Numbered from the stretch's first letter, positions 2,477 to 22,556 are shown. The stretch: DNA of 64,000 bases from Polyangiaceae bacterium (GCA_023150915.1 JAKLKA010000021.1:1-64000), one strand, 5' to 3'. Translations and numbers: made by a program. Notes: generated by a model not told the origin, from the letters alone.

Positions 2477-3739
2477 ATGCAATCAGCCGAAAACGAACAA
2501 ACGTCGCTCCGCCGCCTCGATCACCTCACATTCAAGGGGAACTTGAAGCACACCCGATACGGGTGGTTGCGCCTTACTCCGGCATACTCCGTTCACCTCG
2601 TGGCCGATCTTCTTGAGAAGAAGTGGCGTGAAGGGGACGTGGTTCTGGACCCATTCTGCGGGACGGGGACTACTGCGCTCGTCTGCGCAGAACGCGGCAT
2701 CCCGTGCGACACGACGGACATCAATCACTTCCTCTTGTGGCTCGCGCGTGCCAAGACCGCTCAGTACTCCGCGGTCCACATCGCGGAGTTCCGCGACAAG
2801 GCAGGGATCGTCACAAAGGCGATCCGGCGGTCCAATGGCGAAGGCCCTTGGACGCCGCCGCTTCACCAAATCGAGAAATGGTGGTCCGGGGATACGCTCG
2901 CTGCCCTCGGACGAGCGATGGGCGCTATCCGGCGAATCGAAAAGGCCGTGCCGACCGCCGTTTCAGATCTCATGAAGGTCGCGTTCTGCAGGACGATGAT
3001 CGACCACGCCAACGTGAGCTTCGGCCACCAGTCAATGTCGTTCAAGAAGCAGGACGACAGGGCATTGACGCTTCCCCTTGGCACGGCTGACCACGACGAA
3101 GTCGCGCTCACGTGGGCCAGGGTCGCGCTCCAACTCGCAGACTCCGCCGGGTCGGAGATTCGCGCTGTCCCGACTCCGATCCTCTGCGACGCGCGCGACT
3201 TGCGCCAGAGGCTCGACCTTGATCGGTACGGTTGCGTGATCACCTCACCGCCCTACCCCAACCGCATGAGCTATATCCGCGAGCTCCGGCCGTACATGTA
3301 CTGGCTGGGCTACTTGAACGACGGTCGCGAGGCCGGTGAGCTCGACTGGAAGGCGATCGGCGGCACATGGGGCTGCGCGACAAGCAACGTGGCGAAGTGG
3401 ACACCAGAAACTCCCCTCGAAGTGCCGTTCGGAGGGTTTGAAAAGATCACGGAAAACATTTCGGATCGGAGCGGCGTGCTTGGCCGCTATGTATCCAAGT
3501 ATTTCCACGACATGATGGGCCACTGCGAGTCACTATTCGCCGTCGTCGCACCGGGCGGCACGGTCCACTACATCGTTGGGAACTCGAAGTTCTACGACGT
3601 GATGCTCCCCGTCGAGCGAATCTTCGCCGCGATGTTCGAAGCCGTCGGCTTCCACGGCGTGACGGTCGAGACGATACGGAAGCGCACATCGAAGAAGGAG
3701 TTGTTCGAGTTCGTCGTCAGCGCGCAGAAGCCCGGTTGA
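2477..3739 (+). CDS. site-specific DNA methyltransferase (N4-cytosine/N6-adenine type)
   Basis: This 420-residue amino-methyltransferase has the AdoMet-binding motif I VLDPFCGTGTTALVC (D58-P-F-C-G-T-G-T65) and the catalytic motif IV TSPPY at 256-260. Motif I comes before motif IV with about 190 residues between them, which fits an alpha-like arrangement with the target-recognition region in the middle, or a divergent class. TSPPY favours N4-cytosine or N6-adenine methylation. It starts 4 nt after the putative endonuclease gene and would protect host DNA from it. Target sequence and methylated base cannot be read from sequence alone. Confidence 0.88.
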   Translation: MQSAENEQTSLRRLDHLTFKGNLKHTRYGWLRLTPAYSVHLVADLLEKKWREGDVVLDPFCGTGTTALVCAERGIPCDTTDINHFLLWLARAKTAQYSAVHIAEFRDKAGIVTKAIRRSNGEGPWTPPLHQIEKWWSGDTLAALGRAMGAIRRIEKAVPTAVSDLMKVAFCRTMIDHANVSFGHQSMSFKKQDDRALTLPLGTADHDEVALTWARVALQLADSAGSEIRAVPTPILCDARDLRQRLDLDRYGCVITSPPYPNRMSYIRELRPYMYWLGYLNDGREAGELDWKAIGGTWGCATSNVAKWTPETPLEVPFGGFEKITENISDRSGVLGRYVSKYFHDMMGHCESLFAVVAPGGTVHYIVGNSKFYDVMLPVERIFAAMFEAVGFHGVTVETIRKRTSKKELFEFVVSAQKPG

Positions 3740-5275: not shown

Positions 5276-5347
5276 TGTTGTTTGGTATGCAGAACAGGAT
5301 CTGAATACCTTCGAAAACCGAACCGAGCGTATCAGGAGACCTCCGCG

Positions 5348-6208
5348 ATGGCTACCCCGTTCACGCCCCTCACTCCCCTCCTTCTTGGAGACCACATCAA
5401 GGTCCGTTTAGGTGCCTACGAGCACCATGGAATCCACCTCGGCGGCGGGGTCGTCGTCCACTTCAGCGGCGCGAAGCCGGCGAAGTCGGCAGCCTCTGTA
5501 CGGCTTGGGTCGCTCGAACAGTTTGCTGGTCGCGCTGGCGTCGCAGCGATCGAGGTCGTCGCGTACAGCGCGTGCCTGGAGCCGGACGTGGTGGTGGCGC
5601 GGGCGCGGTCGCTCCTCGGGCGAGTCGACTATCACGTCCTTCGCAACAACTGCGAACAGTGTGCCCGCTGGTGCAAAACCGGCGAGTTCGTGAGCAGCCA
5701 GGTCGAAAGAGCGAAGGCCGCGGGCGGCGGCGTCGCAGCTGCCACGGGTGCCACGGTTGCTGCCGTGGGCCTCGTGTCTGCCACGGGAGTCGTCGCTGGC
5801 ACGAGTGGAGCCGGACTGATGTCAGGCCTCGCTTCTACTGGCGCAGTCGTTGGCGGCGGCGCCGCCGTCGGAGTTGCAGTGCTTGCTGCTGCACCAGCGG
5901 CGGTGGCAGCCGTTGCAACCCATCAGGTGTTCCGAGACGATGCGGCACTGGACGAACGAGAGCGCCTCGCACGACGGTCCGCGCGCATCGCCGGCAAAGT
6001 GGGCGCCGCTGCTGGGACGCTCGGCACCGTCGCTGCCGTGTCCGCGGCGGGCGTGCCCGGTTTGAGCGCCGTCGGGATTAGCTCTGGCCTCGCAGCCTTA
6101 GGCGGCAGCATGGTGGGCGGCTTGGTCGTTGCGTTCGCCGCCCCAGCGGCGTTGGCCGCCGGGGTCGCGTACGCAGCGTATCGGCTCACGAAGAGCAGGG
6201 GGCCGTGA
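5348..6208 (+). CDS. LRAT-domain (NlpC/P60-like) protein with membrane segments, first gene of the CBASS operon
   Basis: The start is ATG 5348, preceded by AGGAGA at 5334-5339; an upstream in-frame start at 5282 lacks such a site. The 286-residue protein has an N-terminal LRAT/H-rev107-type thiol acyltransferase fold. It shows HHGIHLGGGVVVHF (H27 and H38) and NNCEQC with nucleophile candidate C102, matching the family's H...H...NCEH order with the last His replaced by Gln. Residues about 120-205 and 220-280 are Ala/Gly/Val-rich hydrophobic blocks likely to cross or insert in the membrane. LRAT-family enzymes act on phospholipids or other acyl substrates. Its stop (TGA) directly precedes the Cap5 ATG, so it is translationally linked to the CBASS genes and may be an extra membrane effector or an immunity-related accessory. 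The substrate is unknown. Confidence 0.75.
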   Translation: MATPFTPLTPLLLGDHIKVRLGAYEHHGIHLGGGVVVHFSGAKPAKSAASVRLGSLEQFAGRAGVAAIEVVAYSACLEPDVVVARARSLLGRVDYHVLRNNCEQCARWCKTGEFVSSQVERAKAAGGGVAAATGATVAAVGLVSATGVVAGTSGAGLMSGLASTGAVVGGGAAVGVAVLAAAPAAVAAVATHQVFRDDAALDERERLARRSARIAGKVGAAAGTLGTVAAVSAAGVPGLSAVGISSGLAALGGSMVGGLVVAFAAPAALAAGVAYAAYRLTKSRGP

Positions 6209-7369
6209 ATGACCTCAGAGAGCAAGCCATTGGTCGACGTTTCGAGGCACATCCCCGACAAGACGCGCGTCATGCTTGCCATTGAGGCGGGTGGCCGGTG
6301 CGAGTTCGCCGGGTGCAACGACTTCCTCTTCGAGCACCACGTCACCCTGCGTGGAGGCGTCTTCGGCCAGGACGCTCACATCATCGCATACTCGGAGATC
6401 GGTCCGCGCGCCGCGGACGAGAGCGGCACCGTCGAGGTCCACAACATCAGCAACCTCCTGCTCCTGTGCCCGGGGTGCCACAAGCAGATCGACGACGAAC
6501 CCGAGCGGTTCCCGGTCGATGTCCTCCGCCAGTACAAACTGGCACACGAGACACGAATCCGGCTCGTGACTGGGTTGGGACCGGACATGCGCACCGAGGT
6601 CGTGCAGCTCAAGGCGAACATCGCTGGCCAGCCCGTCGGCATCCCGGCCCCCCACGTCTACGAGGCAGTTGCGCCGCGCTACCCCGCCGACACGCAGGGC
6701 TTCGTCATTGACCTGACGAACCTTCACTGCGAGGACGGCACGTTCTACGCGTCCGCGGAGAAGGTGATCCGCAGGAAGGTCGATCAACTCTTCGCTGCCG
6801 GCATTGACGTGAAAGGCGCGCGTCATCTCTCGGTGTTCGCGCTCGCGCCCATCCCAATGCTCGTGCTCTTCGGCGCTGCCCTTGGCAACAAGGTCGCGGC
6901 CGACGTGTACCAACGCCACCGCGACACGGAGGACTGGCGGTGGAAGACCGGCGGCGAGCCGGTCGGGTACGGCTTCAAGAAGGTTAAGAATGGTTCCGCT
7001 AGCGGAGTCGCCTTCATCCTGTCGTTGAGCGGCAAGGTTGCGGTCGACCAAGTCGAGGGGGCGATGAGTTCGTCCCCGACCGTCTACGAGCTCACCCTCA
7101 AAGATCAAGAGCCACGCCCGACGTACCTCCGCCTTCGTGAGGATCTTGCGCGGTTCGGCGTCGTCTACCGCCAGGCCCTTGCCGTTATCCGTGCCGCACA
7201 CCCGGCGCTGAGGGAACTCGCCGTGTTTCCGGCCGTGCCCGCGCCTGTCGCCGTGGTGATTGGGCGCGAACTCCTGCCCAAGGTCGATCCCGTCCTCCTC
7301 GTCCACGACTTCGACAAGGTGAACGGTTTCCAGCAACGAGTGAAGGTGAACGCCTATGACCCCGAATGA
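6209..7369 (+). CDS. cap5: Cap5-like HNH-SAVED endonuclease (CBASS effector)
   Basis: This 386-residue protein has an N-terminal HNH nuclease module with zinc cysteines (GGRCEFAGC about 30-38, LLCPGCHKQ about 89-97) and the catalytic DAHIIAYSE. A C-terminal SAVED-like domain follows (about 150-380, with FVIDLTN and ending in LLVHDFDKVNG). In known Cap5 proteins SAVED binds a cyclic oligonucleotide made by the CD-NTase and triggers double-stranded DNA degradation, killing the infected cell. The gene starts right after the LRAT stop and overlaps the CD-NTase gene by 14 nt, so all are in one operon. Confidence 0.9.
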   Translation: MTSESKPLVDVSRHIPDKTRVMLAIEAGGRCEFAGCNDFLFEHHVTLRGGVFGQDAHIIAYSEIGPRAADESGTVEVHNISNLLLLCPGCHKQIDDEPERFPVDVLRQYKLAHETRIRLVTGLGPDMRTEVVQLKANIAGQPVGIPAPHVYEAVAPRYPADTQGFVIDLTNLHCEDGTFYASAEKVIRRKVDQLFAAGIDVKGARHLSVFALAPIPMLVLFGAALGNKVAADVYQRHRDTEDWRWKTGGEPVGYGFKKVKNGSASGVAFILSLSGKVAVDQVEGAMSSSPTVYELTLKDQEPRPTYLRLREDLARFGVVYRQALAVIRAAHPALRELAVFPAVPAPVAVVIGRELLPKVDPVLLVHDFDKVNGFQQRVKVNAYDPE

Positions 7370-8237
7370 ATACCTTTCGAAGATCCTGGACGAGCAAACG
7401 CTCGCCGAAGATAGCGACGAGCTGAAGCAGCTCCGTGAGCGGAGGCAGGACGTGGAAGACCTTCTCCGCGCGGATTTTGGCTCGAGCCCGACCATCCGCT
7501 ACGGCGGCTCCAAGTCCAAGGGCACGATGATCAAGGAGGCCTACGACCTCGACGTCATCTGCTACTTCCCGCGCGACGACGACGATGCAGGCGGCACCCT
7601 CGAGTCCATCTTCGAGAACGTGAAGAAGTCGCTCGCCAAGAAGTACATCGTGGTGCCGAAGACGTCGGCCATCCGATTGCAGGGCCAGAACTACCAGGAT
7701 TTCCACGTCGACGTGGTGCCCGGCCGCTTCGTCGACGACAACAAGGAGGATGCCTTCCTCCATCGTACGACTGGCGAAAAGAAGCGCCTGAAGACGAACC
7801 TCGACTTGCACATCGAGCACGTGAAGGACAGCGGAGTCGTTTCGTCGATCCGACTGGTGAAGCTGTGGCGCATTCGCCGCGGGCTCTCTATCAAGCACTT
7901 CGCGCTCGAGCTGCTAACCATCGAGGTGCTGAAAGGCAAGAAATCGAAGAGTGTGGACGCACAGCTCGAGTACCTCTGGCAAAAGCTCCGCGACGAAGTG
8001 GAATCCATCAAGATCGAGGATCCCGCGAATCCGAGCGGCAACGATCTGGCGGAGCTGTTGAATGACGCAGTCCGCCAGGAGCTCTCCACGGCGGCGTCAA
8101 GCACGCTCGCAGCCATCGACCGTGATGGATGGGAGGGGGTCTTCGGCAAGCTCGCCACGACGAGCGAGAAGAAGGCCGCCGTTATCGAGGCCGCCAGGGC
8201 TGTGAGCGCTCCGTCGCGCCCGTGGTGCCACTGTTGA
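7356..8237 (+). CDS. cdn: CD-NTase (cGAS/DncV-like nucleotidyltransferase) of CBASS
   Basis: This 293-residue nucleotidyltransferase has the Pol-beta-type site GGS (50-52), D64-L-D66 and a third acidic residue D119 (DFHVDVVPG). It would make a cyclic di- or trinucleotide second messenger on phage infection and activate the SAVED-linked nuclease encoded upstream. The gene overlaps the Cap5 stop by 14 nt, and its own stop is immediately followed by the E2-like ATG. In type II CBASS the CD-NTase C-terminus is conjugated to a target by Cap2 or E2. Here it ends in W-C-H-C, which is unusual and should be checked for a late frameshift. The clade is not assignable by eye. Confidence 0.92.
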   Translation: MTPNEYLSKILDEQTLAEDSDELKQLRERRQDVEDLLRADFGSSPTIRYGGSKSKGTMIKEAYDLDVICYFPRDDDDAGGTLESIFENVKKSLAKKYIVVPKTSAIRLQGQNYQDFHVDVVPGRFVDDNKEDAFLHRTTGEKKRLKTNLDLHIEHVKDSGVVSSIRLVKLWRIRRGLSIKHFALELLTIEVLKGKKSKSVDAQLEYLWQKLRDEVESIKIEDPANPSGNDLAELLNDAVRQELSTAASSTLAAIDRDGWEGVFGKLATTSEKKAAVIEAARAVSAPSRPWCHC

Positions 8238-8921
8238 ATGCCGAACCTGTGGCGTGGCGAGACTGACGACGAGATTCGGGCCGCGCTCGAGGTTCGTTAC
8301 CCGAGTCTGCGGCTGGCGCGGCCCGAAAACCGGCGAGTGATAATGGGAGCCTTCAACGTCCAGCACACCGGGCACTTCCTCGGCGGTTTCCAAGTCGAAG
8401 TCCTCCTCGATGTCCCCGATGAGCTAGGCCTGCCTACCGTCAGGGAAGTTGGTGGGCGCATCCCGCGGATGCCCGAAAGGCACATCAACGACAAGTTCGG
8501 CACCGCGTGCCTCTACTTGCCCGAAGATCTGGCGGTCCGCGTCAGGGAGCCGCTCGGCATCATCGAGTTTCTCGACGGGCCAGTCCGGAATTTCTTCCTC
8601 GGGCAGATCGGCGCCGAGATGGGCACGCCGTTCCCGCTCGGTGAGTGGGGGCACGGCGCCGATGGCGTCAAGGAGATGCTCACACAGCTCCTCGGTTCCG
8701 ACGACGTTGGGACTTGCGTCGCGTTTCTGGAGCTCTTGTCCCGGAAGGTGATTAAGGCCCACTGGCCTTGCCCATGCGGCAGCGGTCGAAGCCTCCGTGA
8801 CTGCCACGACGGCGTTGTGCGCCGAGTGCGCCAACGGCTTCCGTTGACGACGCGGCGTTTTCTTTTGGAGCGCGCGCGCAAGCATTTCCCCGAAGGCCAG
8901 ACGACGCGAAATCGGCCTTGA
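8238..8921 (+). CDS. E2-like conjugating protein with C-terminal SEC-C zinc motif (E1-less type II CBASS)
   Basis: This 227-residue protein starts directly after the CD-NTase stop. Residues about 10-150 resemble prokaryotic E2-like domains, with ERHINDKFGTACLYLPED giving H82 and the candidate catalytic cysteine C91. The C-terminus has a perfect SEC-C metal motif C-x-C-x8-C-H (C178, C180, C189, H190). No E1 (ThiF) or JAB protease is encoded nearby, so this looks like the short, E1-less type II CBASS in which the E2 alone modifies the CD-NTase. The SEC-C extension may bind a partner. The E2 fold is inferred from motif and context. Confidence 0.75.
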   Translation: MPNLWRGETDDEIRAALEVRYPSLRLARPENRRVIMGAFNVQHTGHFLGGFQVEVLLDVPDELGLPTVREVGGRIPRMPERHINDKFGTACLYLPEDLAVRVREPLGIIEFLDGPVRNFFLGQIGAEMGTPFPLGEWGHGADGVKEMLTQLLGSDDVGTCVAFLELLSRKVIKAHWPCPCGSGRSLRDCHDGVVRRVRQRLPLTTRRFLLERARKHFPEGQTTRNRP

Positions 8922-8970
8922 CCCGCGGTCGAGGCAGCTCAGTGCCCGGAATCAACGAAGCGCTCGCGCG

Positions 8971-9126
8971 CCCGTAGCTATGCCGCGGGTGCCTGCGGCC
9001 GCGCCGCCCTGGGCAAGCACCACTGCTCGCCGCTGAACCGCCGAACCCCACTGCCCCACTGCTTGCCCACACCCCCTGGACAAGCCTTTGGCTTGCCCAC
9101 ATGCCCATAGGCCCGACCACGACGAT
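8971..9126 (+). repeat. dispersed repeat A, copy 1
   Basis: About 155 bp that recur with good identity at 15681-15832. Both begin CCCGT..C.ATGCCGCGGGTGCC and end GCCCGAC.ACGACGAT. They carry inverted segments such as GGGCAAGCA facing TGCTTGCCC and a short stem CAAGCC facing GGCTTG, so the RNA or single strand could fold. The copy fills most of the gap between the CBASS operon and the McrBC module. A 38-bp piece recurs at 19357-19394. Confidence 0.8.
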
Positions 9127-9138
9127 TAGTTAGAGGGC

Positions 9139-9336
9139 GTGACGAGCTATGCGACGCCCGCTACGCTGCCCAAGAAGCCGGTGCCGCTGTTACCCGAGAT
9201 ATCCCTCGCTCGCCGTGATCGAGAATCCGCGGTTTGGGATGATCGTCTCCACGTACGTGACGTGGAAGTACTGATGGCGTTGGTCGAGTCCGAACGGCGA
9301 CGACGAGCTGCCACCTCAGACGCTCCCGTGGTGTGA
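9139..9336 (+). CDS. small hypothetical protein
   Basis: This is a 65-codon frame with a GTG start, rich in Arg and Glu in its second half. It lies between repeat A and the McrB gene on the same strand, 18 nt before the TTG start of McrB. No motif is recognised and no clear ribosome site precedes it. It could be a real leader gene of the McrBC operon or a chance frame in GC-rich DNA. Confidence 0.3.
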   Translation: MTSYATPATLPKKPVPLLPEISLARRDRESAVWDDRLHVRDVEVLMALVESERRRRAATSDAPVV

Positions 9337-9354
9337 ACAATCTCGGAGGGGAAG

Positions 9355-12339
9355 TTGGACCAAGCTACAGCACAGGCTCTGAAAGAAGCGCTGGCCGGCG
9401 CCGACGTCGCTGATCTCGAACGGCTGGACCCAGCGGTCCTGCAGACGTTTCACCCTTGGGCTCGCGGAAAGCCCGTGGTCGGCGTGTTCCGCTACCGTCA
9501 CGGCGAGGACGCGCTCCACCTCCTCGTGATCGACTGGAATGCGCGGAAGCCAGGCAACCACTACCTCGTCGTGTTTGGCGATCCCGGCGGCGTGCCCCTG
9601 ATGGAGTCGCACAAGGTAGCGGACGGCAAGCTGCTCTGGCGCTACGCGCCGAAGTCACGGGACGGGCGCAACGAGGAGCGACAAGAACAATTCGCCGGCG
9701 TCATGGGCAGCGTGGACGTCGAGCTGCCGTTGCCGACGGGACCAACCGACGTAAGCGCCTTGCTCGACGCGGTGGTGAAGCTCGTGGAGGCCCGCAAAGC
9801 CGCGCGGGATGTAGGCGCGGACGATCAGGGAGAAGCGCCGGTCGCGGCAGTCGCGTGGATTTTCCAGGCGAACCCGCGGTACTTCGACCTCGCAGCAGCG
9901 CTCGGAACGCTCAACGAGCTGCAATGGCGCGTGAACCAGCACCTCGACAGGATCAAGCCCGGGCACCGGGTCTTCCTGTGGCAGTCGGGGAAGAACGGGG
10001 GCGTGCTCGCGCTCGGCACCATCCTCACGGCGCCTGCAACACTTGCGCCGATGCAGCAGGAGCAACCGTTTGTACTCGACGCCGAAGCGCTGCCACCGAC
10101 CCCGATGCTCGGGGTTCGCGTTCGCATCGACGAAGTCCTCGACGAGCCGCTGGACCGAGAAACGCTACGCGAGGATCCCCGCCTCGCGAGCCTCGGCTTT
10201 CTGCGTGCCTCGCAGGGCACGAACTTTCCGGTCACCGATGCCGAACTGGGTGCGCTCCTCGACCTCGCAAGCGGAAGTCGACCGCCCCGGACCGTCAAGA
10301 TCGCGCCCGGCGAGGAGGGCCGCTATTGGGATGACTGCCTGAGCGGCGGCTACATCTGCGTGGGATGGGACGAGGTGGGTGACCTGCATCAGTACCGCGA
10401 CAAGCACGCCTTCCGCGACGTCTTCCGGAAGCACTTCCGGTATGGAGGCAACGAGCCGACGGTCGCCAAGAAGTCCAACGAACTCTGGACACTGCGAGAG
10501 CTCCGGCCAGGTGATTTGATCGTCGCGAACCGCGGCATGAGCGAAGTGCTCGGCGTAGGTCGCGTCTTAGAACCTGGTTACGCATGGAACGCCAAGCGGC
10601 CCGAGTACAAGCACACGGTCCGGGTCGAGTGGGATACTTCGTCCGCCCGGAGGATACCGAAGCAGCCGTACTGGGGCGTCGTGACGGTCTGCGACGTGCC
10701 GGTCGAACTCTTCAGCGCGATCATCTCGAAGCCGAAGGCCGAAGAGCCCGGGCCAGCGGCGAGCACGACGTTCGCGAAGCTATGCGCTTCCCTCCAGGAA
10801 GCCGGCCTCTCTTACTCCGAGGAGGTGGTCAGCGCCTACTTGCTTGCGCTCCAAGCCAAGCGGTTCGTCATTGTGACCGGCATCTCGGGCACTGGGAAGA
10901 CGCAGCTCGCGATAACTGTCGCCGAGCAGCTCGGAAGCGGCGCCCGGCGCAAAACCATCGCCGAGATCCCGAAGACGGCGACCCGGTTCATCGTGCAGCC
11001 CTACAGCCTCAAGTACAACCGGCTTGTGCTACCCCGTGCCCTCGCCGCCGAGCTCGGGCTCACGGAGGCCGGAGCACAGTGGAGCCCAAGCGAGATCGAG
11101 GTGGTGTGGCCGGGGGGGAAAGAGCAGCTCTCGGCGGGGACGTACAAGAACGCGAGCACGTTGCTGTTCAAAGGGCCCTTCCGCCGTTGGTTTCAAACCA
11201 CATTCTCGATAGGTGACCCGTTCTACGTGGATCTCGAGGAAGTGTCAGAAGGAGGCGGGCAACGTCTGCGATTCGGCGTGCCCAAGAAGGTCGAGCGCGA
11301 GGTGGAAGAGCCGCCTCGCGTTGCCGTTGTCGCGGTGCGTCCCGACTGGACCGACAACCGCGGTTTGCTCGGGTACTACAACCCGATTCTGCAGCAATAC
11401 GTGACGACGGAGTTCTTGCGCCTGTTGTTGCGTGCGCGCGATGAAGCGCAGGCTGCGAAGCGGGAGAACAGGACTCCCGAGCCGTACTTCGTCATCTTGG
11501 ACGAAATGAATCTGGCGCGAGTCGAGCACTACTTCTCCGACTTCCTCTCGGCGATGGAGTCAGGGAAGGAGATGGATCTGCACGACGACGACGACGTGGA
11601 AAGCGGGGAGAAGAGCGACGCCGACCCGATACCGAAACGGCTGGGCGTGCCCCCGAACTTGTTCTTCACCGGAACCGTGAACGTGGACGAGACGACGTAC
11701 ATGTTCAGCCCGAAGGTTCTGGACCGCGCGTACGTGCTGGAGCTGAACCTCGTCGACCTCGCGGGGTTCAGCGCGACGGGCGTTGCTGGTGAGGGCGAGG
11801 GGCAAGCGCGCTTCGCGTGCACCGACATGCCCCAGCCGCTCCGCGCCGAGCGGCCTCCGAGGAGCGAGGACTGGGAGGAGCTGGGCACGCTGCTCGAGGG
11901 GCAGCTGCGCCGCGTCGTCATCGACCTCCACCGGTTGCTCGAGGCCCACAGCCGGCACTTCGGCTACCGGGTCGCCAACGAGATCGGTCGCTTCGTGGCG
12001 CTCGCGTCGGAGCAGTCCACCGGGGGCGCCGACACCGCCGAGATCTTGTGGGCCGCCCTCGACCTGGCCGTGCTGTTCAAGGTGCTGCCGAAGCTCCACG
12101 GAACGCAGCAAGAGCTCGAGGAGTTGCTGGCCTCTCTCTTTACGTTCGCCGCGACCATCGACTTCGACGCCTCGGTGAAACCGGAGAGCGCGTACGCCGG
12201 GTGGAGCGTCGACCGGGACCGCTTGGTCGCTGATCCGGAATCCGGGCACACCCGGCCGTGGCTGCCGCGGACCGCCGCGAAGCTCTTGCGCATGGCTCGG
12301 CGCCTCGAGCGACAGGGGTTCACTTCCTTCATCGAGTAG
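9355..12339 (+). CDS. mcrB: McrB-like AAA+ GTPase with two PUA/EVE-type sensor regions (type IV restriction)
   Basis: The 994-residue protein starts at TTG 9355, supported by GGAGGG at 9345-9350. After an unassigned N-terminal part (about 1-155) comes an EVE-like module (about 160-240; WIFQANPRYFDLAAAL, GHRVFLWQSGKNGGVLALG). A second PUA/EVE-like region follows (about 310-435; YWDDCLSGGYICVGWDEVGD, ELRPGDLIVANRGMSEVLGVG). The motor has Walker A GISGTGKT (509-516), Walker B VILDEMNLAR (713-722) and the McrB-type signature GTVNVDE (773-779) with a downstream DRA arginine. EVE domains bind modified bases, so this should sense modified phage DNA and drive the McrC nuclease. The McrC gene begins 2 nt downstream. 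Confidence 0.88.
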   Translation: MDQATAQALKEALAGADVADLERLDPAVLQTFHPWARGKPVVGVFRYRHGEDALHLLVIDWNARKPGNHYLVVFGDPGGVPLMESHKVADGKLLWRYAPKSRDGRNEERQEQFAGVMGSVDVELPLPTGPTDVSALLDAVVKLVEARKAARDVGADDQGEAPVAAVAWIFQANPRYFDLAAALGTLNELQWRVNQHLDRIKPGHRVFLWQSGKNGGVLALGTILTAPATLAPMQQEQPFVLDAEALPPTPMLGVRVRIDEVLDEPLDRETLREDPRLASLGFLRASQGTNFPVTDAELGALLDLASGSRPPRTVKIAPGEEGRYWDDCLSGGYICVGWDEVGDLHQYRDKHAFRDVFRKHFRYGGNEPTVAKKSNELWTLRELRPGDLIVANRGMSEVLGVGRVLEPGYAWNAKRPEYKHTVRVEWDTSSARRIPKQPYWGVVTVCDVPVELFSAIISKPKAEEPGPAASTTFAKLCASLQEAGLSYSEEVVSAYLLALQAKRFVIVTGISGTGKTQLAITVAEQLGSGARRKTIAEIPKTATRFIVQPYSLKYNRLVLPRALAAELGLTEAGAQWSPSEIEVVWPGGKEQLSAGTYKNASTLLFKGPFRRWFQTTFSIGDPFYVDLEEVSEGGGQRLRFGVPKKVEREVEEPPRVAVVAVRPDWTDNRGLLGYYNPILQQYVTTEFLRLLLRARDEAQAAKRENRTPEPYFVILDEMNLARVEHYFSDFLSAMESGKEMDLHDDDDVESGEKSDADPIPKRLGVPPNLFFTGTVNVDETTYMFSPKVLDRAYVLELNLVDLAGFSATGVAGEGEGQARFACTDMPQPLRAERPPRSEDWEELGTLLEGQLRRVVIDLHRLLEAHSRHFGYRVANEIGRFVALASEQSTGGADTAEILWAALDLAVLFKVLPKLHGTQQELEELLASLFTFAATIDFDASVKPESAYAGWSVDRDRLVADPESGHTRPWLPRTAAKLLRMARRLERQGFTSFIE

Positions 12340-12341
12340 GC

Positions 12342-13895
12342 ATGGCCGAACTCTCGATCAGGTCTCGACAGACCAAGACGGCTCCACCGCAGATTAACGG
12401 GCGGTGGGTGCTGGCGACCGAGCAAGAATGGCTGATCGAGGGTCTCCCCGTCGCTCTCGATGCCATCGAGCACGAACTCGCGGGGGTGTGCGAGCGCGTG
12501 GGTGGCGTGCTCCTTCTCAACTTCCGGAATGTGGTCGGGCGCTTCAACCTCCCGTACCTGGGCCCGCTTGAGGTCGCGTCGGGCAAGTGGACGGATGCGG
12601 ACTTCGATCATCTGCTCGCGGACGTGACAGAGATTGCGGCGGCGCTTCCCTTCTCGTCCCGCGTGGGCGGCGGGCTGCCGTACGAGCGGACTGCACTGCC
12701 AGAGCAGCAGGTGCCCTACCACGCTTTCGTCTACCTCCGTTACATCCTGTCCGATGCCGCGCCACTCCACGAACAGCTGGGTCCATCTCTTCGCCGCGTC
12801 GTCGCCCAGCCCCACCGGAAACTCGTGCCGCGCGGGCGAGTTGTCCCGCTCGAACGCGCACGTCTCGTCGGCACGCGGGGTCTGGTCCGCATCCTGGAAC
12901 AACCTGGCGACTGGATCGGCGTTGAGCGTGGCTATGGCGGTCCGCTCGCGCTGGCGTTGCGAAACCATCTTCCTGAGCAGATCGAAGAAGACCACCGCAC
13001 CGCGACGCTGGACACCCCCGAGAACCGGTTCGTCTTGATGTTCCTCGAGCTCTGCAGGAGCATCGTGGAGAGGACGCGGAATACCGCGTCAGCGTGGTCG
13101 GGCTTCTCACGCAGTCGACTCCTCGACGACTGCGACCGCATTCAGCGAGTTCTCGCGCCGATCCGCTCGCACGCCATGTGGCGCGATGTCGGTCAGCTCG
13201 CTCACGTCCCGGCCGGGTCCAGCGTGCTGCAGCGACAGTACGGCTATCGAGACGTCCTCCGGCACTACGTGAGACTCCGCCTGGTCAGCCGCATCCCGCT
13301 CGACGACGACGCCGTCGAGGACCTGCTCGGCCTTAAGGACGTCGCGACGTTGTACGAACTGTGGTGCTTCTTCGCGGTCGTGGACGCGGCCCGCGCGTGC
13401 CTGGGGCGCCCGGTCGAGGCGTCTACTCCGCGGGTAGAACCCGGGCAGCTCACGGTCCCATGGGGTTTCCGGGTCGCATGGTCGGACGGGAGCGAGCTCT
13501 TCTACAACGCCAGCTTCACGCCGAAGTCCAAGGATCCGGCTTTTCGCTCGACATCCGTCGTGCTCCGACCGGACGTCACGCTACGCATTCCCGACGGCCC
13601 CGCGCGAGGGGTCCACCTGTTCGATGCCAAGTTCAGGCTGCAGGCGCTCCCGACAGATGACGCTGACGACGTCGATGCGACGTTCAAGCGCGCCGACTTG
13701 TACAAGATGCACACCTACCGGGACGCGATCCCCAGCGCGCGAAGTGCGTGGATCATCTACCCGGGCACGGAGGAGAGGTTCTTCGCCACTTCGGGCGGTG
13801 CCGGATGTGACGGCGTCGGCGGAGTCCCTGGCCTTCCGGGCGACTTGGAGGCGATCCGAAGTCGAGTGCGCCGTGTGTTGCAGAGTGCGGTGTAG
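12342..13895 (+). CDS. mcrC: McrC-like DUF2357 nuclease subunit
   Basis: This 517-residue protein starts 2 nt after the McrB stop. The N-terminal 350 residues resemble DUF2357/McrC connector regions. The C-terminal part has a PD-(D/E)XK site: LRPDVTLRI with D411, then LFDAKFRL with D428-A-K430, followed by YKMHTYRDAI, typical of this nuclease family. It would cut DNA when engaged by the McrB hexamer. An upstream in-frame start at 12258 lies inside McrB and is not used. No frameshift is seen. Confidence 0.87.
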   Translation: MAELSIRSRQTKTAPPQINGRWVLATEQEWLIEGLPVALDAIEHELAGVCERVGGVLLLNFRNVVGRFNLPYLGPLEVASGKWTDADFDHLLADVTEIAAALPFSSRVGGGLPYERTALPEQQVPYHAFVYLRYILSDAAPLHEQLGPSLRRVVAQPHRKLVPRGRVVPLERARLVGTRGLVRILEQPGDWIGVERGYGGPLALALRNHLPEQIEEDHRTATLDTPENRFVLMFLELCRSIVERTRNTASAWSGFSRSRLLDDCDRIQRVLAPIRSHAMWRDVGQLAHVPAGSSVLQRQYGYRDVLRHYVRLRLVSRIPLDDDAVEDLLGLKDVATLYELWCFFAVVDAARACLGRPVEASTPRVEPGQLTVPWGFRVAWSDGSELFYNASFTPKSKDPAFRSTSVVLRPDVTLRIPDGPARGVHLFDAKFRLQALPTDDADDVDATFKRADLYKMHTYRDAIPSARSAWIIYPGTEERFFATSGGAGCDGVGGVPGLPGDLEAIRSRVRRVLQSAV

Positions 13896-13978
13896 GGGGG
13901 GACGAATAGGCGACCGCCGCTAGCGGTCCATGAGCGTGAAGCGTGGCTGGGTGGAATGAACATGTGAAGGGACGAACG

Positions 13979-14674
13979 ATGCGGAAAGATCCGGACCTCT
14001 TCAGCTACTGCATTCCGTACGACGACGGGGCTGCTCCGAACCCCTACTGGGGCGTGTGCACGCTGGTGATCTGCAAGCCCGCGATTAGGCGGTCTGCGAA
14101 GGTCGGGGATTGGGTCCTCGGCACAGGCTCGATGCACGCGCGCCTTGGCAACGGCGACACGCAAGACATGAGCGGCCGCGTTGTCTACGCGATGCGAGTG
14201 ACCCGCAAATTGACGATGAAGGAGTACGACGCTTTCACGCGAAGCGAGCTCAAGCAGAAGATCCCGGCATGGGGAAGTCGCGACCCTCGTCGCCGCGTCG
14301 GGGACTCGATCTACGACTTCTCGAAGGGAGAACCACCGAGACAGCGCAGGGGTGTGCACGTCGCAGCCAACGTCCAGACAGACCTCGGCGGAAAGCACGC
14401 CCTCTTGTCGGACGACTTCTTCTACTTCGGGGACGCAGCCCCTGAGATACCGAAGAGCCTGCGTGCGATCGCCCAGAACCAGCAGGGGCACCGACGGAAG
14501 CTGAACCGACCCTACGTGCATCGGTTCGAATCTTGGATCCGCTCGTTGGGCTACCAGTCAGGCACGGTGCTCGGCAAGCCGAGCCTCGACCTGTTCGCAG
14601 ATGAGCGGTGCAGGAACTGGTGCGCGGCAGGAAGAGCGGAAAGTGACGTGGCTGACGTTGAGGTGAACTGCTAG
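13979..14674 (+). CDS. Nmad2-like (nucleotide modification-associated) protein
   Basis: This 231-residue protein starts at ATG 13979, preceded by AAGGGA at 13967-13972, 83 nt after McrC on the same strand. Its N-terminus (LFSYCIPYDDGAAPNPYWG, then VGDWVLGTGS) matches my memory of the Nmad2 family, predicted in base-modification and restriction contexts. Next to an EVE-type McrBC it may be a third reader or a modification accessory. No catalytic site is recognised. The family call is by recollection of sequence pattern, so moderate. Confidence 0.65.
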   Translation: MRKDPDLFSYCIPYDDGAAPNPYWGVCTLVICKPAIRRSAKVGDWVLGTGSMHARLGNGDTQDMSGRVVYAMRVTRKLTMKEYDAFTRSELKQKIPAWGSRDPRRRVGDSIYDFSKGEPPRQRRGVHVAANVQTDLGGKHALLSDDFFYFGDAAPEIPKSLRAIAQNQQGHRRKLNRPYVHRFESWIRSLGYQSGTVLGKPSLDLFADERCRNWCAAGRAESDVADVEVNC

Positions 14675-14987
14675 CACCCACGGCAGGTCGCGATGCCCGC
14701 GGCATGGGCTTTGCCCTCGTGCTCTGGATCGAGATCACGGAGAGGCGCAGACCGGCACCGACGGCGGAGTGGCTGATCGTTCGGATCGAACGGGGAGGTT
14801 CCCAGTCGAACAAATCGTCGTGGTCTTCGTCGCTTCGTCGAGCCTGTGGACATGTGACCACGCGCCAAGCCGACGCTCTCGCGGGCAGTGCTTCTGTTGT
14901 TACTACCGATGAGGCCACAGGGGGAGAAAGACGCGGCCTGGACGCCTGGACGGTCCGTCAGGGGATCCAGACCGCGTCGTTCCATGG
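14675..14987. other. gene-free stretch between Nmad2-like gene and Zn-ribbon gene
   Basis: I see no convincing gene, repeat or RNA here. Short overlapping frames on both strands have the Arg/Ser-rich composition of chance frames in GC-rich DNA. Confidence 0.5.
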
Positions 14988-15449
14988 TCAGTACTCGTCG
15001 ACACCGACCCATTCATTGCCACCTTCCGCCCACAGGCGGTTGGTCGCTTCGTCCCTCACCTCGTCAGACTCGTCGTCGAAATGCTCCAGGAGGACGTCGT
15101 CTGGATCGTAGGGGCCGCCGTTGGTGAACTGATAGCCGTCCTCACGGCCGGCGTAGGGCACGCCGTCGGCAGGGTCCTTGTATCGCTCCAGGAACCACTC
15201 GACGAGTGCCTCGACAGCAGTACAGAACGGACACCGTTCGCTACCCTGCAAGAGACCGAAGAACTCACGGCCACAAGGGCACGCAAGAGGGCGTGCCTGT
15301 GTTCCCTTGGTCTTCGCTTCTTCCAAAGCATCGAGGTATTGACTCTGGCGCTTGGGTTTGATCTCGAACTGCCTCAAGTGGTCCAACGCTTGCTGATACG
15401 AAATGGAAACTAGCCCCTGGAGCCGACGGGCTCGTGATGTAGATGACAT
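14988..15449 (-). CDS. hypothetical protein with Cys4 zinc-ribbon
   Basis: This 153-residue protein (ATG 15449) has two knuckles, ACPCGREFFGLLQ and RCPFCTAVE, that together could bind one zinc. Ahead of them is a basic helical segment (SQYLDALEEAKTKG), and behind them an acidic C-terminus rich in Asp, Glu and Tyr. The frame runs open back to 15620, but the added 57 residues look non-coding (Pro/Arg-rich). It lies in the defence island between the McrBC/Nmad2 block and repeat A copy 2, on the opposite strand. No family is recognised. Confidence 0.5.
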   Translation of the reverse strand: MSSTSRARRLQGLVSISYQQALDHLRQFEIKPKRQSQYLDALEEAKTKGTQARPLACPCGREFFGLLQGSERCPFCTAVEALVEWFLERYKDPADGVPYAGREDGYQFTNGGPYDPDDVLLEHFDDESDEVRDEATNRLWAEGGNEWVGVDEY

Positions 15450-15680
15450 CTCAATCGACCTTCCGCTCTGCCGATCCCGGACCTCGACCGAGCTGTTCGG
15501 TTGAGGGTCAAATGCCTGTGCGATCTCTCGTCTTGCGGGCTCCCGCTTCTCCGCTCCACCCGGTCCGGGCGGGAATCGGAGCAATTTGAAGGGGCGACGA
15601 GACGGGCCCCTGAAATACACTTATAGGCCTCGAACCCGGCTGCGGCAACGTGCTTGCCTCGGAAGTCGTCCTCGAGAGTG
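15450..15680. other. non-coding stretch upstream of Zn-ribbon gene
   Basis: This is the presumed promoter region of the minus-strand Zn-ribbon gene. I see no gene or structured element of note, only an in-frame 5' extension that looks non-coding. Repeat A copy 2 follows directly. Confidence 0.4.
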
Positions 15681-16700: not shown

Positions 16701-17933
16701 TCACTTCCGCCCTCGATTGCCGCGAGGCTTAGCGGCTGATGAAGGCGTCGCGCCGGCGGCATCCAGGCCAGCGCTCAGCGCCAGCCGGTTGCGCGCGGCT
16801 TCGATGGCATCGTGCAGGCGTTTTTCGAGGACCTTGCGCGGAGGCAGGTCGGTCAGATACCCGGCGACGTGGATCCCCCGGGCATCGAGATCGAGGTACT
16901 CGACTGTTTCGCGCTTCTTGCCTGCGCAAAGGATGATACCGAGCGGGGCCTCCTCAGACGGTTGGCGTTCGTGACGATCGAGCCAGCGCAAGTAGATTTC
17001 CATCTGCCCCGAGTCAGCGGGCTTGAAGTCACCGATCTTGAGCTCGATTACGACGAGGCGGCGCATGCGCCGATGGAAAAACAAGAGGTCGAGGTAGTAG
17101 TCGTCTCCGTCGAGCGTGATGCGCTTCTGGCGCGCGACGAAGGCGAAGCTGCCGCCAAGCTCCAACAGGAACCGCTCGATCTCGCGCAGGATGGCTGACT
17201 CGAGGTCCTTCTCGCTGTAGCTGTCGGCGAGCTGGAGGAAGTCGAGCATGTACGGGTCTTGGAAGACCAGGGCTGGCGTGACCTCGCCCTTCTCGTGCAA
17301 CGCCGCGAGCTCCTCGCGAACCAGCTCTGCCGGCTTCTTCGACAGAGCCGTGCGTTCGTAGAGCATCCCGTCGATCTTCTGGCGAAGCTCACGGGTGCTC
17401 CATCGCTCGATGCGGCACATCTCGGCGTAGAAGTCGCGCTTGAGGGGCTCTTTGAGCGGGATCAGCAGGGTGAAGTGCGTCCACCCCAATTGTCGCAGCA
17501 GCGCTGCGACAATCGCCGAATCAGGAAACACCTCCGCGAACTGCACCATCCTGCGCAGGTTCTTCTCCCCGAACCCTCGCCCGTAGCGGGCCTCCAATTG
17601 TCGCCCCACTGCTGCGACAATTTGCGCGCCGTACTCGGCGCGCTGTCCCTCGAGAACTTCCGTGCGCACGCGATGCCCGATGTGCCAGTAGAGTGTGGTG
17701 AGTGCAGCGTTCGCTGCGACCGCGAGCTGCTTGCGCGCCGCATCGATCATCCGCCCGAGATCCTGCACGAGCGTCGCGACCTGGCCGTGGTTCGGGGCCG
17801 ATGCCGCCGCGAGCCCCCTCGGCGATACTGGGAGCGCTTTCCCGGCCTTCCCGGTCGCCGAACCTCGTTTCACCGCCGGTGAGACTCTCTTCGTCCCCAC
17901 CTTGGCGGGCTTCCTGCGTGGCGGCTTCTTCAT
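16701..17933 (-). CDS. yhcG: DUF1016/YhcG-family PD-(D/E)XK nuclease
   Basis: The 410-residue protein starts at ATG 17933 (MKKPPRRKPAKVG); the further in-frame extension upstream is unlikely. A basic Lys/Arg-rich tail (1-40) is followed by the DUF1016 N-terminal helical domain (about 45-190; TLYWHIGHRV, YGRGFGEKNLRRMVQFA, LGWTHFTLLIPLK). A C-terminal PD-(D/E)XK nuclease follows (about 215-370) with D282, E297 and K299 (YYLDLLFFHRR, VVIELK). YhcG-type proteins are found in defence islands and as orphan nucleases. This one lies alone between repeat B copies 1 and 2. Confidence 0.9.
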   Translation of the reverse strand: MKKPPRRKPAKVGTKRVSPAVKRGSATGKAGKALPVSPRGLAAASAPNHGQVATLVQDLGRMIDAARKQLAVAANAALTTLYWHIGHRVRTEVLEGQRAEYGAQIVAAVGRQLEARYGRGFGEKNLRRMVQFAEVFPDSAIVAALLRQLGWTHFTLLIPLKEPLKRDFYAEMCRIERWSTRELRQKIDGMLYERTALSKKPAELVREELAALHEKGEVTPALVFQDPYMLDFLQLADSYSEKDLESAILREIERFLLELGGSFAFVARQKRITLDGDDYYLDLLFFHRRMRRLVVIELKIGDFKPADSGQMEIYLRWLDRHERQPSEEAPLGIILCAGKKRETVEYLDLDARGIHVAGYLTDLPPRKVLEKRLHDAIEAARNRLALSAGLDAAGATPSSAAKPRGNRGRK

Positions 17934-18152
17934 CGCGAGGCATTGCTCCCGGCGGAGGGGCGGGTGGCGGGCAGCGTGGTAACGAACTCCAGGGAGCGCA
18001 GCCTTTCGATCACGCATACGAACTCGCGACCGGAGGAGCGGCTACCGGCTTCGTGGCTCAGCACAGCCGGGGATTGTAGTCGCGAGCGCCAGTCCCGGAA
18101 AGCCGACACCCGTTCGGTCCCGCGCGTAACTACGTTCCAGCGTCACGAGGGA

Positions 18153-19460: not shown

Positions 19461-22400
19461 TCACGCCTGCTCGAGCGTCGCGTACCGCTGGTACAGGCCG
19501 GCGGCCAGGGCGTGCTCGAGGCGCCATGTGATCGCGATGGGTCGGTCGCCTTCGTGTGACTGATACACGGCCGGGCCGCAGAAGGCGTAGGGCGCGTCGG
19601 GGTCGGTGCGGACGAACAGGAAGAAGCGCCAGCCGTTCGCCGGGCTCTGGATGTAGCGCCGTCCGCTCTCGCCGTGGACGCTGGCGACGGACTGGGTCTC
19701 CCAGTGAAAAAGCTGCGGCGAGATGGCGTAGTCCCGATACCGAGTCGTGGGGGAGAAGCTCTTGCCAGACTTGTCCAGCGTGATGAAGAGTAGCTCGCGC
19801 TGACCCTGCACCTTGAGGATGCCCGCTTGCGGGACGCCGGCCTTGTCGCCGGCCTGCTTGTAGCCCACCGCGGCCGCGATCTCGAAGCGCGTGTAGTGGC
19901 GATGGAGCGCCAGAGGCCACTCGGCCACCGGAAAGACATCTTCCGGGAGCGGGACGCGGCTCGAGAGCACCTGGCACAGCTCCGAGAGCTCTTGCTTGAT
20001 GTTGCCTGAAGCCAGGCGGCGGATGGTCGCTTCCGGCGTGGGCACGATGCCCCTTGGCTCGAGCTGGATGCTCAGCATCGTGAGTCGCGCGTTTTCGACG
20101 TCCGCCACGGTCAGGACAGGGGTATCGGTGGCACGAAGCCAGCTCGAAAGCCGCGTCGGCTCATCGACATGCAGCAGACGCCCGAGGCGCTCGCTCGTCG
20201 CGTCCTCGGTTTCGTTTTCGCGCTCGGAGAGCAGACCGGCTGCACGGCGCACGGTGGTCCAGCCCCCGGCACCGTATACGTCCTCGAGCTCGCGGCCGGT
20301 GGCATCGAGGAAGCGGGCCAGGCTCAAGGGTGTGGCGGCCTCGGCACCGATCTCCCTGGCCTCTTCGACGATCCGCTGGCGGCGGGCAAGGTGCGATCGA
20401 AGCGAGCCGAGGATCTGATCGCGTGCGACGGCATCGAGCTGAAACGCGCAGCCGCTGGGCAACAGTGGCAGCCCCTGCTCGAGAGCCTTGAGCAGGCGCG
20501 CACGCGGCACCCCAGTGAGCGCAGACAGCGTGCCGTCGAAGCGAAACTCTGCGCGGTGCTGCCCGATGAAGTCCAGAACCAAGCAGCTCGACTTGTTCTT
20601 GTCGAGCCGCAGACCGCGCCCGAGCTGCTGAAGGAAGAGCGTGGCGCTCTGGGTCGGACGGAGCAGGATCAGCGTGTCGACGTAAGGCAGGTCGACGCCT
20701 TCGTTGTACAGGTCGCAGGTGCAAAGAACGTTCACCTCTCGCCGCTGCAGCAGGCCCGGCGCCTCGGCGCGCTTGCTCGACGGCGTTTCGCCGTGAACGG
20801 CGACTGCCGGCACGCCGCGGGCCGTGAATGCCGCGGCCATGAATTCAGCGTGCTCGACCGACACACAGAAAGCCAGCGCGCGAACACCACGCAAGTTCGC
20901 GACTCGGCGCTGGAGTTGCTTGACGACCAGGTCGGCGCGGGCGTCGTTGCCGGTGTAGACGTTCGAAAGCGCTGCTTGGTCATAGCCGTTCCGCGTCCAG
21001 TGAACCCGCTTCAGATCGGTGTTGTCAGAGACGCCGTAGTACTCGAACGGCACGAGGAGCTGCCGATCGAGCGCATGCCAGATCCGTAGCTCGGCGGCGA
21101 TGGTGCCTTCGAAGTCGGGGAGCAGCGACTTTCCGTCGCTACGTTCGGGAGTGGCCGTGAGCCCCAAGAGGATCCGAGGCAAGAGCCGTGGGACGATCGC
21201 GCGGTACGAATCGGCGGGCGCGTGGTGGCACTCGTCGACGACCACGTACTCGAAGTGGTCCGGACCGAAGCGCCCCAAGATGTCGCGGCTGGCTGCGCTC
21301 TGGATGGTGGCAAAGACGTGGTCCCAACGCGCAGGCTCGTCGCCACCCGCCAAGAGCTCACCGAATGCACCATCGTGCAGGGCCTGCCGGAATGTCGCGA
21401 GCGCCTGGTCGAGGATTTCCTTCCGGTGCGCTAGAAACAGCAGACGCGGCGGGATCTGTGAGGCCCCGATCTGCCGTGCGTAGTCGAAGGCAGCAACGAC
21501 GGTCTTGCCCGTGCCTGTCGCCGCGACGACCAGATTTCGGTGGCGGCCGTGAACGTGCCGCTCGGTCGCGAGACGGTCCAGAATCTCCTCTTGAAAAGGG
21601 AAAGGGCGGAGCGAGAAGAAGACCTGGGGCGACGTCGGGTCCGCGGGAGAAAGAGCGGCCCGCAGCCGGCTGCGCGACTGCTCGTCGTGCGGGTCGAAGC
21701 GCTCGAACTCGGAGTCCTGCCACAAGCCCTCGAACGTGCCCTTGAACTTGTCGATGACGTGCGGCAGGTCAGCGGCGCATGCCTTGACCATCCACTCTTG
21801 CCCGCTGCCCAGAGCGGTCGCAGTGAAGTTGGCGGACCCGACGTAGGCTGTGTGAAGCCCCGTGTCGCGGTAGAACAACCAGGCCTTCGCGTGCAGGCGC
21901 GTCCGACGGGTATCGTAGGATACTTTGACCTCGGCGCCCGGGAGCGACGCGAGCAGATCGACCGCTTCGAGCTCGGTGGTTTGCGTGAACACGGTCGTGA
22001 GAACGCGCAGCCGCACCTCGGTGGTCGAACGCCGCGCGAATGCCTCGAGGGCGTCGCGCAGCAGCCGGACACCACCGACCGTGATGAACGCGACCAAGAC
22101 GTCGATGCGGTCGGCGGAGGCAACTTCCCGCTCGAGCTCTCCGCCCAGGCTGGGTTCCGCGCGGCTGCGCGTCAAAAGGGTGCTCGACGCCAGGGGCGTC
22201 CGCGGGCGCTCGTAAGGGCTCGTCTCGTAGACCGCCAGCAGCTCTCGGCCAGGCGGCTCGACCTTGCGACCCGCGGCCCCGACGGAAGCCCCGTCCGAGT
22301 GGCCGGCGATCCGGTGAAGCTCGTCCAGCAAGCCGTTGACGATGGCGAGCTGAGCAGGCACGCGTTCGGCGTGGGGCACTGCCGCCAGCGCCCGCTCCAC

Positions 22401-22556
22401 CTCGAGCGCGACGTGACGTGCCAGGACCGAGTGCGAATCGGCCGTGTCCAGCGGCTCGACCTGCGACTTGCGCTCCCGGTCGAGCGAAGCCAGATCGACC
22501 GCGAGCGCCCCCGTGACTACCTGTTCGTACAGTCCGTCCGCGAGCCGCCCAGGCAT
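19461..22556 (-). CDS. PLD-nuclease / DEAD-like helicase / DUF3427 protein
   Basis: This 1031-residue protein has three parts. A phospholipase-D-like domain (about 145-260) has the HKD-type motif RLHAKAWLF..GSANFT (H222, K224, N243). An SF2 helicase core (about 320-700) has Walker A AATGTGKT (345-352), DECH (441-444), GLTATPERSD and QQLGRGLRL. A C-terminal DUF3427-type domain (about 850-1031) contains ATRYRDYAIS-like and RFFLFVR segments. Such proteins occur in defence islands and probably couple DNA translocation to cleavage. It follows a 70-codon gene by 21 nt on the same strand, and repeat B copy 3 lies just beyond its 3' end. Confidence 0.88.
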   Translation of the reverse strand: MPGRLADGLYEQVVTGALAVDLASLDRERKSQVEPLDTADSHSVLARHVALEVERALAAVPHAERVPAQLAIVNGLLDELHRIAGHSDGASVGAAGRKVEPPGRELLAVYETSPYERPRTPLASSTLLTRSRAEPSLGGELEREVASADRIDVLVAFITVGGVRLLRDALEAFARRSTTEVRLRVLTTVFTQTTELEAVDLLASLPGAEVKVSYDTRRTRLHAKAWLFYRDTGLHTAYVGSANFTATALGSGQEWMVKACAADLPHVIDKFKGTFEGLWQDSEFERFDPHDEQSRSRLRAALSPADPTSPQVFFSLRPFPFQEEILDRLATERHVHGRHRNLVVAATGTGKTVVAAFDYARQIGASQIPPRLLFLAHRKEILDQALATFRQALHDGAFGELLAGGDEPARWDHVFATIQSAASRDILGRFGPDHFEYVVVDECHHAPADSYRAIVPRLLPRILLGLTATPERSDGKSLLPDFEGTIAAELRIWHALDRQLLVPFEYYGVSDNTDLKRVHWTRNGYDQAALSNVYTGNDARADLVVKQLQRRVANLRGVRALAFCVSVEHAEFMAAAFTARGVPAVAVHGETPSSKRAEAPGLLQRREVNVLCTCDLYNEGVDLPYVDTLILLRPTQSATLFLQQLGRGLRLDKNKSSCLVLDFIGQHRAEFRFDGTLSALTGVPRARLLKALEQGLPLLPSGCAFQLDAVARDQILGSLRSHLARRQRIVEEAREIGAEAATPLSLARFLDATGRELEDVYGAGGWTTVRRAAGLLSERENETEDATSERLGRLLHVDEPTRLSSWLRATDTPVLTVADVENARLTMLSIQLEPRGIVPTPEATIRRLASGNIKQELSELCQVLSSRVPLPEDVFPVAEWPLALHRHYTRFEIAAAVGYKQAGDKAGVPQAGILKVQGQRELLFITLDKSGKSFSPTTRYRDYAISPQLFHWETQSVASVHGESGRRYIQSPANGWRFFLFVRTDPDAPYAFCGPAVYQSHEGDRPIAITWRLEHALAAGLYQRYATLEQA

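Follow-up and report, generated by a model that had tools for sequence, protein, structure and literature searches.

An NxD-branch McrBC locus whose McrB combines an EVE domain with a second, predicted EVE/YTH-like domain, followed by an Nmad2 gene

The locus described here belongs to a known kind of system, McrBC, in an elaborate form: its motor protein has two reader-type domains. It lies in a stretch of 64 000 nucleotides from a Polyangiaceae bacterium (GCA_023150915.1, JAKLKA010000021.1, positions 1–64 000), which was analysed as a whole and is referred to as the window. In our preferred reading, to which we assign a probability of about 0.6, it encodes a modification-dependent, GTP-driven type IV-like restriction complex of the NxD branch, with a mosaic reader in McrB. 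McrB would read DNA via an N-terminus composed of an unnamed module, an EVE domain and a second EVE/YTH-like domain. One or both of the EVE-like domains may take up a flipped-out modified base, in the way known for the EVE domain of VcaM4I and the YTH domain of Thermococcus McrB. With stimulation from the DUF2357 stalk of McrC, the AAA+ ring would hydrolyse GTP and translocate the DNA, which the PD-(D/E)XK domain of McrC would cut. Nmad2 is probably co-transcribed and would probably be another PUA-like binding protein, added locally. Base reading, GTPase-driven translocation, cleavage and a role in phage defence are ascribed to the complex from knowledge of the family. The reading is supported by the Pfam and PDB profile matches of the EVE domain, by the predicted structure and fold search of the second domain, by intact motor and nuclease motifs in closely spaced genes, by relatives that bear other N-terminal modules on the same motor and insert, and by the presence of CBASS, YhcG and a type IV enzyme match on the same island.

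The domains, motifs and gene order are observed in the window, and their coordinates are given in Table 1. Analysis of open reading frames and starts agreed with the span of 9355–14674 given in an earlier note made from the DNA alone. The McrB stop and the McrC ATG are separated by 2 bp, Nmad2 starts 83 bp past the McrC stop and all three genes are on the plus strand. A consensus scan of 8900–15000 detected no promoter-like site and just two terminator-like sites, of which the plus-strand one falls within McrB; shuffled sequence gave more. Co-transcription of McrB, McrC and Nmad2 is therefore likely.

Table 1. Features of the McrBC–Nmad2 locus, in coordinates of the window.
Feature	Position	Strand	Residues	Remarks
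McrB open reading frame	9355–12339	+	994 residues	TTG start behind GGAGGGG, a strong ribosome-binding site
Unnamed N-terminal module	9355–9819	+	1–155	Homologous to a free-standing 172-aa protein of Paenibacillus plasmids
EVE domain	9856–10260	+	168–302	Pfam PF01878, E 4.5e-12
Second EVE/YTH-like (PUA-superfamily) domain	10285–10734	+	311–460	Predicted structure; recurrence in relatives
McrB-type AAA+ GTPase motor	10735–12336	+	461–994	Motifs; alignments to many McrBs
GTPase insert	10993–11289	+	547–645 (about 100 residues)	Between Walker A and Walker B
McrC gene	12342–13895	+		ATG start at 12342; DUF2357 and PD-(D/E)XK nuclease
Nmad2 gene (PF18753)	13979–14674	+		ATG 13979 the likeliest start; predicted YTH/ASCH-like fold

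Several other genes of the window were noted. A CBASS-like operon lies directly upstream at 5282–8921 and encodes an LRAT-domain protein, an HNH-SAVED effector, a SMODS nucleotidyltransferase and an E2-like protein with SEC-C. Further upstream, a methyltransferase-like protein at 2477–3739 contains the motifs DPFCGTGT and TSPPY, its Pfam N6_N4_Mtase match being partial only. Behind Nmad2, on the opposite strand, 14988–15620 (−) gave a weak match to a HEPN/RES N-terminal domain, below the Pfam cut-off. A YhcG nuclease gene and a helicase are located at 16701–18017 and 19461–22556; the helicase carries PLD and DUF3427 and matches the PADLOC type IV methyl-directed enzyme (E 1.3e-231), and in another locus, L135, a similarly composed helicase (HIT, PLD, ResIII) adjoins McrBC.

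McrC was matched by Pfam to DUF2357 (E 1.7e-34) and PDDEXK_7 (E 6.2e-16), as expected from the earlier proposal of a DUF2357 nuclease behind McrB, and the active-site residues RPD...FDAK of the nuclease are intact. Together with a McrB-type GTPase bearing Walker A, Walker B and Nx(x)D motifs, these are the features by which a type IV McrBC system is recognized. In the motor, which matches PADLOC PDC-M26A (E 2.4e-44), Walker A is GISGTGKT at residue 509, the Walker B region is FVILDEMN at 712 and the GTPase signature is NVDE at 775. The signature stretch, TVNVDETTYMFSPKVLDRA, has NxD instead of NxxD, followed by E. The NxD branch is defined by this replacement, usually with E or D as the next residue (PMC11090510), and by its signature McrB is therefore placed in that branch. 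The insert between the Walker motifs is common to six relatives (G198, G213, G154, G231, G994 and G1020). By eye only, it resembles a B3-type DNA-binding domain; it gave no Pfam or PDB profile match. Like the NxD signature and the N-terminal module treated below, the insert goes beyond what the earlier note described.

A comparison with 377 genomes of the phylum gave three nearest McrC proteins, with 48, 47 and 42% identity to that of the window. The McrB proteins beside them retain the motor and insert but begin differently: G198 has a stretch that looks helical, together with the second EVE-like domain, and in G994 and G213 the N-terminus is short and of another kind. Such an exchange on a constant motor fits swappable specificity parts. 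The N-terminal module of the window's McrB (residues 1–155) is, on sequence comparison, likewise a mobile module. It has no Pfam match, was aligned by tblastn to NZ_CP145893 with 33% identity (E 3e-17) and matched the free-standing Paenibacillus protein in pairwise BLASTP (E 2e-28). AlphaFold2 modelled it poorly. Its assignment as a further EVE domain was rejected, as neither EVE profile reported a match. The free-standing homologue, at L152:4896–5414 on a Paenibacillus plasmid, is encoded near AbrB-like, MazG-like and HNH genes.

That one McrB chain carries two domains of the EVE/YTH superfamily, as the earlier note had suggested, is supported by sequence matches for the first and by a predicted structure for the second. 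In addition to its Pfam match, the first domain, as a six-member profile, matched the solved EVE structures 2gbs, 2eve and 2ar1 with E values of 4e-6 to 4e-5; it was modelled poorly, with few homologues in the structure prediction. For residues 311–460, Pfam gave no match even at E 1, a PDB profile search gave none, and hhalign against the first EVE domain reached 71% over 49 columns only. Assignment from sequence alone was abandoned and structure was used instead. An AlphaFold2 model of 470 residues of McrB, for which nine relatives on genome contigs served as input, gave residues 311–460 a pLDDT of about 95. Foldseek on the 470-residue model returned no E value below 0.001. VIA-align of residues 311–460 returned EVE, YTH, THYN1 and ASCH structures with Z scores of 10.7 to 6.1, the best being the EVE proteins PH1033 and MJECL36 (2hd9/2p5d; Z 10.7), with VcaM4I (6yex) at Z 10.3 and YTHDF2 at Z 8.7. 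The expected PUA-like barrel in the 310–435 region thus holds in the predicted structure.

Twenty further McrB-like proteins, drawn from several phyla, contain the second EVE-like module, and the motors that carry it are of both the NxD and the NxxD type. The module follows MrcB_N (DUF3578) in Salinibacter and MrcB_N plus EVE in Microvirga, and in a Bacteroidetes metagenome-assembled genome an EVE domain is found further on in the same protein. Given this variety of accompanying modules, multi-reader McrBs are a recurrent pattern and not unique to the window. Viral contigs scanned with the N-terminal third of McrB, the second reader and the EVE alignment gave no matches. In the family of 20 sequences, glycines and tryptophans are invariant, and aromatic (Trp, Tyr) and polar residues are conserved. 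The pocket of the VcaM4I EVE domain is formed by P24, W82 and Y130, and EVE/YTH relatives bind modified bases (PMC7897488). Both EVE-like domains may bind modified bases and, as the earlier note proposed, they might act in series on two sites or on two modifications. A variant within the preferred reading, in which one domain alone reads a modified base and the other serves as a structural spacer or binds DNA or RNA in general, has a substantial minority chance of being right. The second domain immediately precedes the motor and stays in place while many different modules occur upstream of it, in the manner of a linker-like adaptor; the conserved aromatic and polar residues and the habits of EVE/YTH relatives speak against the variant.

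The Nmad2 gene expected behind McrC was matched to PF18753 with E 2.7e-57 (194 bits, against a gathering cut-off of 26.1). The E values of EVE, McrC and Nmad2 are all well outside the range of chance matches. A single Nmad2 sequence as query gave no matches in viral contigs; an Nmad2 alignment scan of these contigs gave ten loci, which were used for the model, and the model itself (pLDDT 82.8) drew on nine viral-contig relatives. In VIA-align, all 50 of the 50 rows listed were YTH or EVE structures, the best with Z 7.8 over 131 residues. Z scores below 8 can arise by chance; a PUA-like (YTH/ASCH-like) fold is nevertheless favoured because all of the rows listed come from one superfamily, and we regard it as probable, with moderate support from the model. 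This fold is also in line with several viral models that have ASCH domains. Foldseek listed ASCH, YTH, EVE and the N-terminal domain of T. gammatolerans McrB among unrelated rows, with no E value below 0.001. In the literature collection searched, none of the papers treated Nmad2 by name.

The genomic context of Nmad2 is different elsewhere. It is absent beside all three of the nearest McrBC relatives among the 377 genomes of the phylum, which is the outcome that the earlier note had named as refuting its proposal. A further 39 Nmad2 loci were compared, for which all counts are rough (some contigs are short, a few Nmad2 matches, as in L103 and L104, are weak, and at least one pair, L071 and L112, is the same element): none of the 39 contains intact McrBC, 22 have a TIR protein directly upstream of Nmad2 (ThsB-like by Pfam where scanned), 16 a MazG_C protein, 11 a uracil-DNA glycosylase and five Nmad3. 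One of the 39, L108, contains a McrC-like piece, a PD-(D/E)XK fragment of 155 residues (HMM E 7e-4) that is convergent with Nmad2 and near a contig end; it was left out of the intact systems. Elsewhere, then, Nmad2 is paired with TIR or Nmad3, or stands alone. The nearest intact cellular relative found (L093, 50% identity) lies among housekeeping and Uma2 genes without McrBC, and a closer one (L098, 61%) is a 93-residue remnant, also without McrBC. A conserved partnership of Nmad2 with McrBC was rejected on the context of the three nearest McrBC relatives and the 39 loci, and from these comparisons Nmad2 is here probably a local addition and not a core McrBC subunit. The suggestion that it adds a third modified-base reader as a functional subunit therefore stands only in part: the predicted fold is compatible with it and the gene is on the same strand close behind McrC, but the partnership is not conserved, the closest intact cellular relative lacks McrBC and the one McrC-like fragment is marginal. 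We judge it distinctly unlikely.

In the loci outside the window, small ThsB-like TIR genes precede Nmad2 in L063–L074, L076, L090–L092, L101, L109 and L111–L114, and these loci often also carry MazG_C plus uracil-DNA glycosylase, or a nucleotide kinase. The modelled YTH/ASCH-like fold and the pairing with TIR give the cassette the look of a modified-base or modified-nucleotide sensor with a TIR effector. No paper on the combination of TIR, MazG and uracil-DNA glycosylase was found in a literature search. An Nmad3 gene accompanies Nmad2 in L094, L095, L096, L097 and L103, and is adjacent in L094 and L095. At L105:3897–4529 and L106:3959–4669, on viral contigs, Nmad2 (43–44% identity) stands alone among phage-like genes. 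These TIR–Nmad2 cassettes of plasmids and viral contigs share with the locus an Nmad2 of the same Pfam family, which here follows McrC instead of a ThsB-like TIR gene.

Several known systems resemble the locus in part. The McrB of Thermococcus gammatolerans has a YTH reader of 6mA (6p0f/6p0g), and VcaM4I is an EVE–HNH enzyme for 5mC/5hmC. The former shares an N-terminal YTH/EVE-fold reader on a McrB motor, but a single one, whereas here two are in series with further modules; the latter has the EVE structure matched by the second domain here, but carries an HNH nuclease and no motor. Among defence proteins that contain an EVE domain, fusions to McrB are the most frequent, and in the EVE-McrB/McrC type IV systems an EVE domain likewise precedes the McrB GTPase and McrC has DUF2357 and PD-(D/E)XK (PMC7641849). 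The locus differs from these in its two EVE/YTH-superfamily domains, extra N-terminal module, GTPase insert and NxD in place of NxxD. With the NxD branch, which comprises CoCoNuTs and methyltransferase-associated systems (PMC11090510), it shares NxD followed by E and a DUF2357 McrC, but it has small EVE-like specificity domains, no coiled coils that could be found and no adjacent methyltransferase.

This branch supplies two points against our preferred reading: no NxD-branch McrB had been characterized as of PMC11090510, and NxD kin can adjoin a DNA methyltransferase, as on a Sinorhizobium plasmid where an NxD McrB with an identical signature stretch is directly behind a methyltransferase gene. 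The poor model of the EVE domain itself also weighs against it. The Sinorhizobium arrangement would fit restriction of unmodified sites in the manner of LlaJI, a two-subunit enzyme with McrB- and McrC-like subunits that restricts unmethylated DNA (PMC1459862) and whose homologue binds DNA via a B3 domain (PMC7680126). Binding would then be sequence-specific, perhaps through the B3-like insert, and blocked by a host methyltransferase, with the EVE-like domains as accessories or sensors of methyl marks. Such a mode of action is unlikely here. LlaJI has two co-located methyltransferases, whereas none is adjacent at this locus; the methyltransferase-like gene that might serve is 5.6 kb upstream with the CBASS operon between, and its product has no significant match among the loci compared. 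The B3 likeness of the insert, seen by eye, found no echo in profile searches.

An RNA-directed system akin to CoCoNuTs is the most improbable of the explanations considered. The NxD signature is common to both, and the McrB proteins of CoCoNuT types I-B and I-C carry YTH-like domains (PMC11090510). CoCoNuTs, however, are marked by long coiled coils, tandem or replaced nucleases and RNA-binding domains, and in McrB and McrC of the window Pfam detected no coiled coil, cold-shock, Hsp70 or HEPN domain, while the nuclease motif of McrC is intact. It is very unlikely, too, that the EVE domain, the second EVE/YTH-like domain and Nmad2 read different modifications and that the NxD McrBC fires only where two or more marks coincide. 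Were this so, densely hypermodified phage DNA would be cut and sparsely methylated host DNA spared.

McrBs with several readers raise the question of whether a single reader or several in combination determine type IV specificity. With compact DNA-type readers in place of coiled coils, the locus would offer a tractable member of the NxD branch for purification. For Nmad2, a Pfam family whose name reflects no more than a link to nucleotide modification, a role is suggested by the predicted YTH/ASCH-like fold together with the regular pairing with TIR elsewhere.
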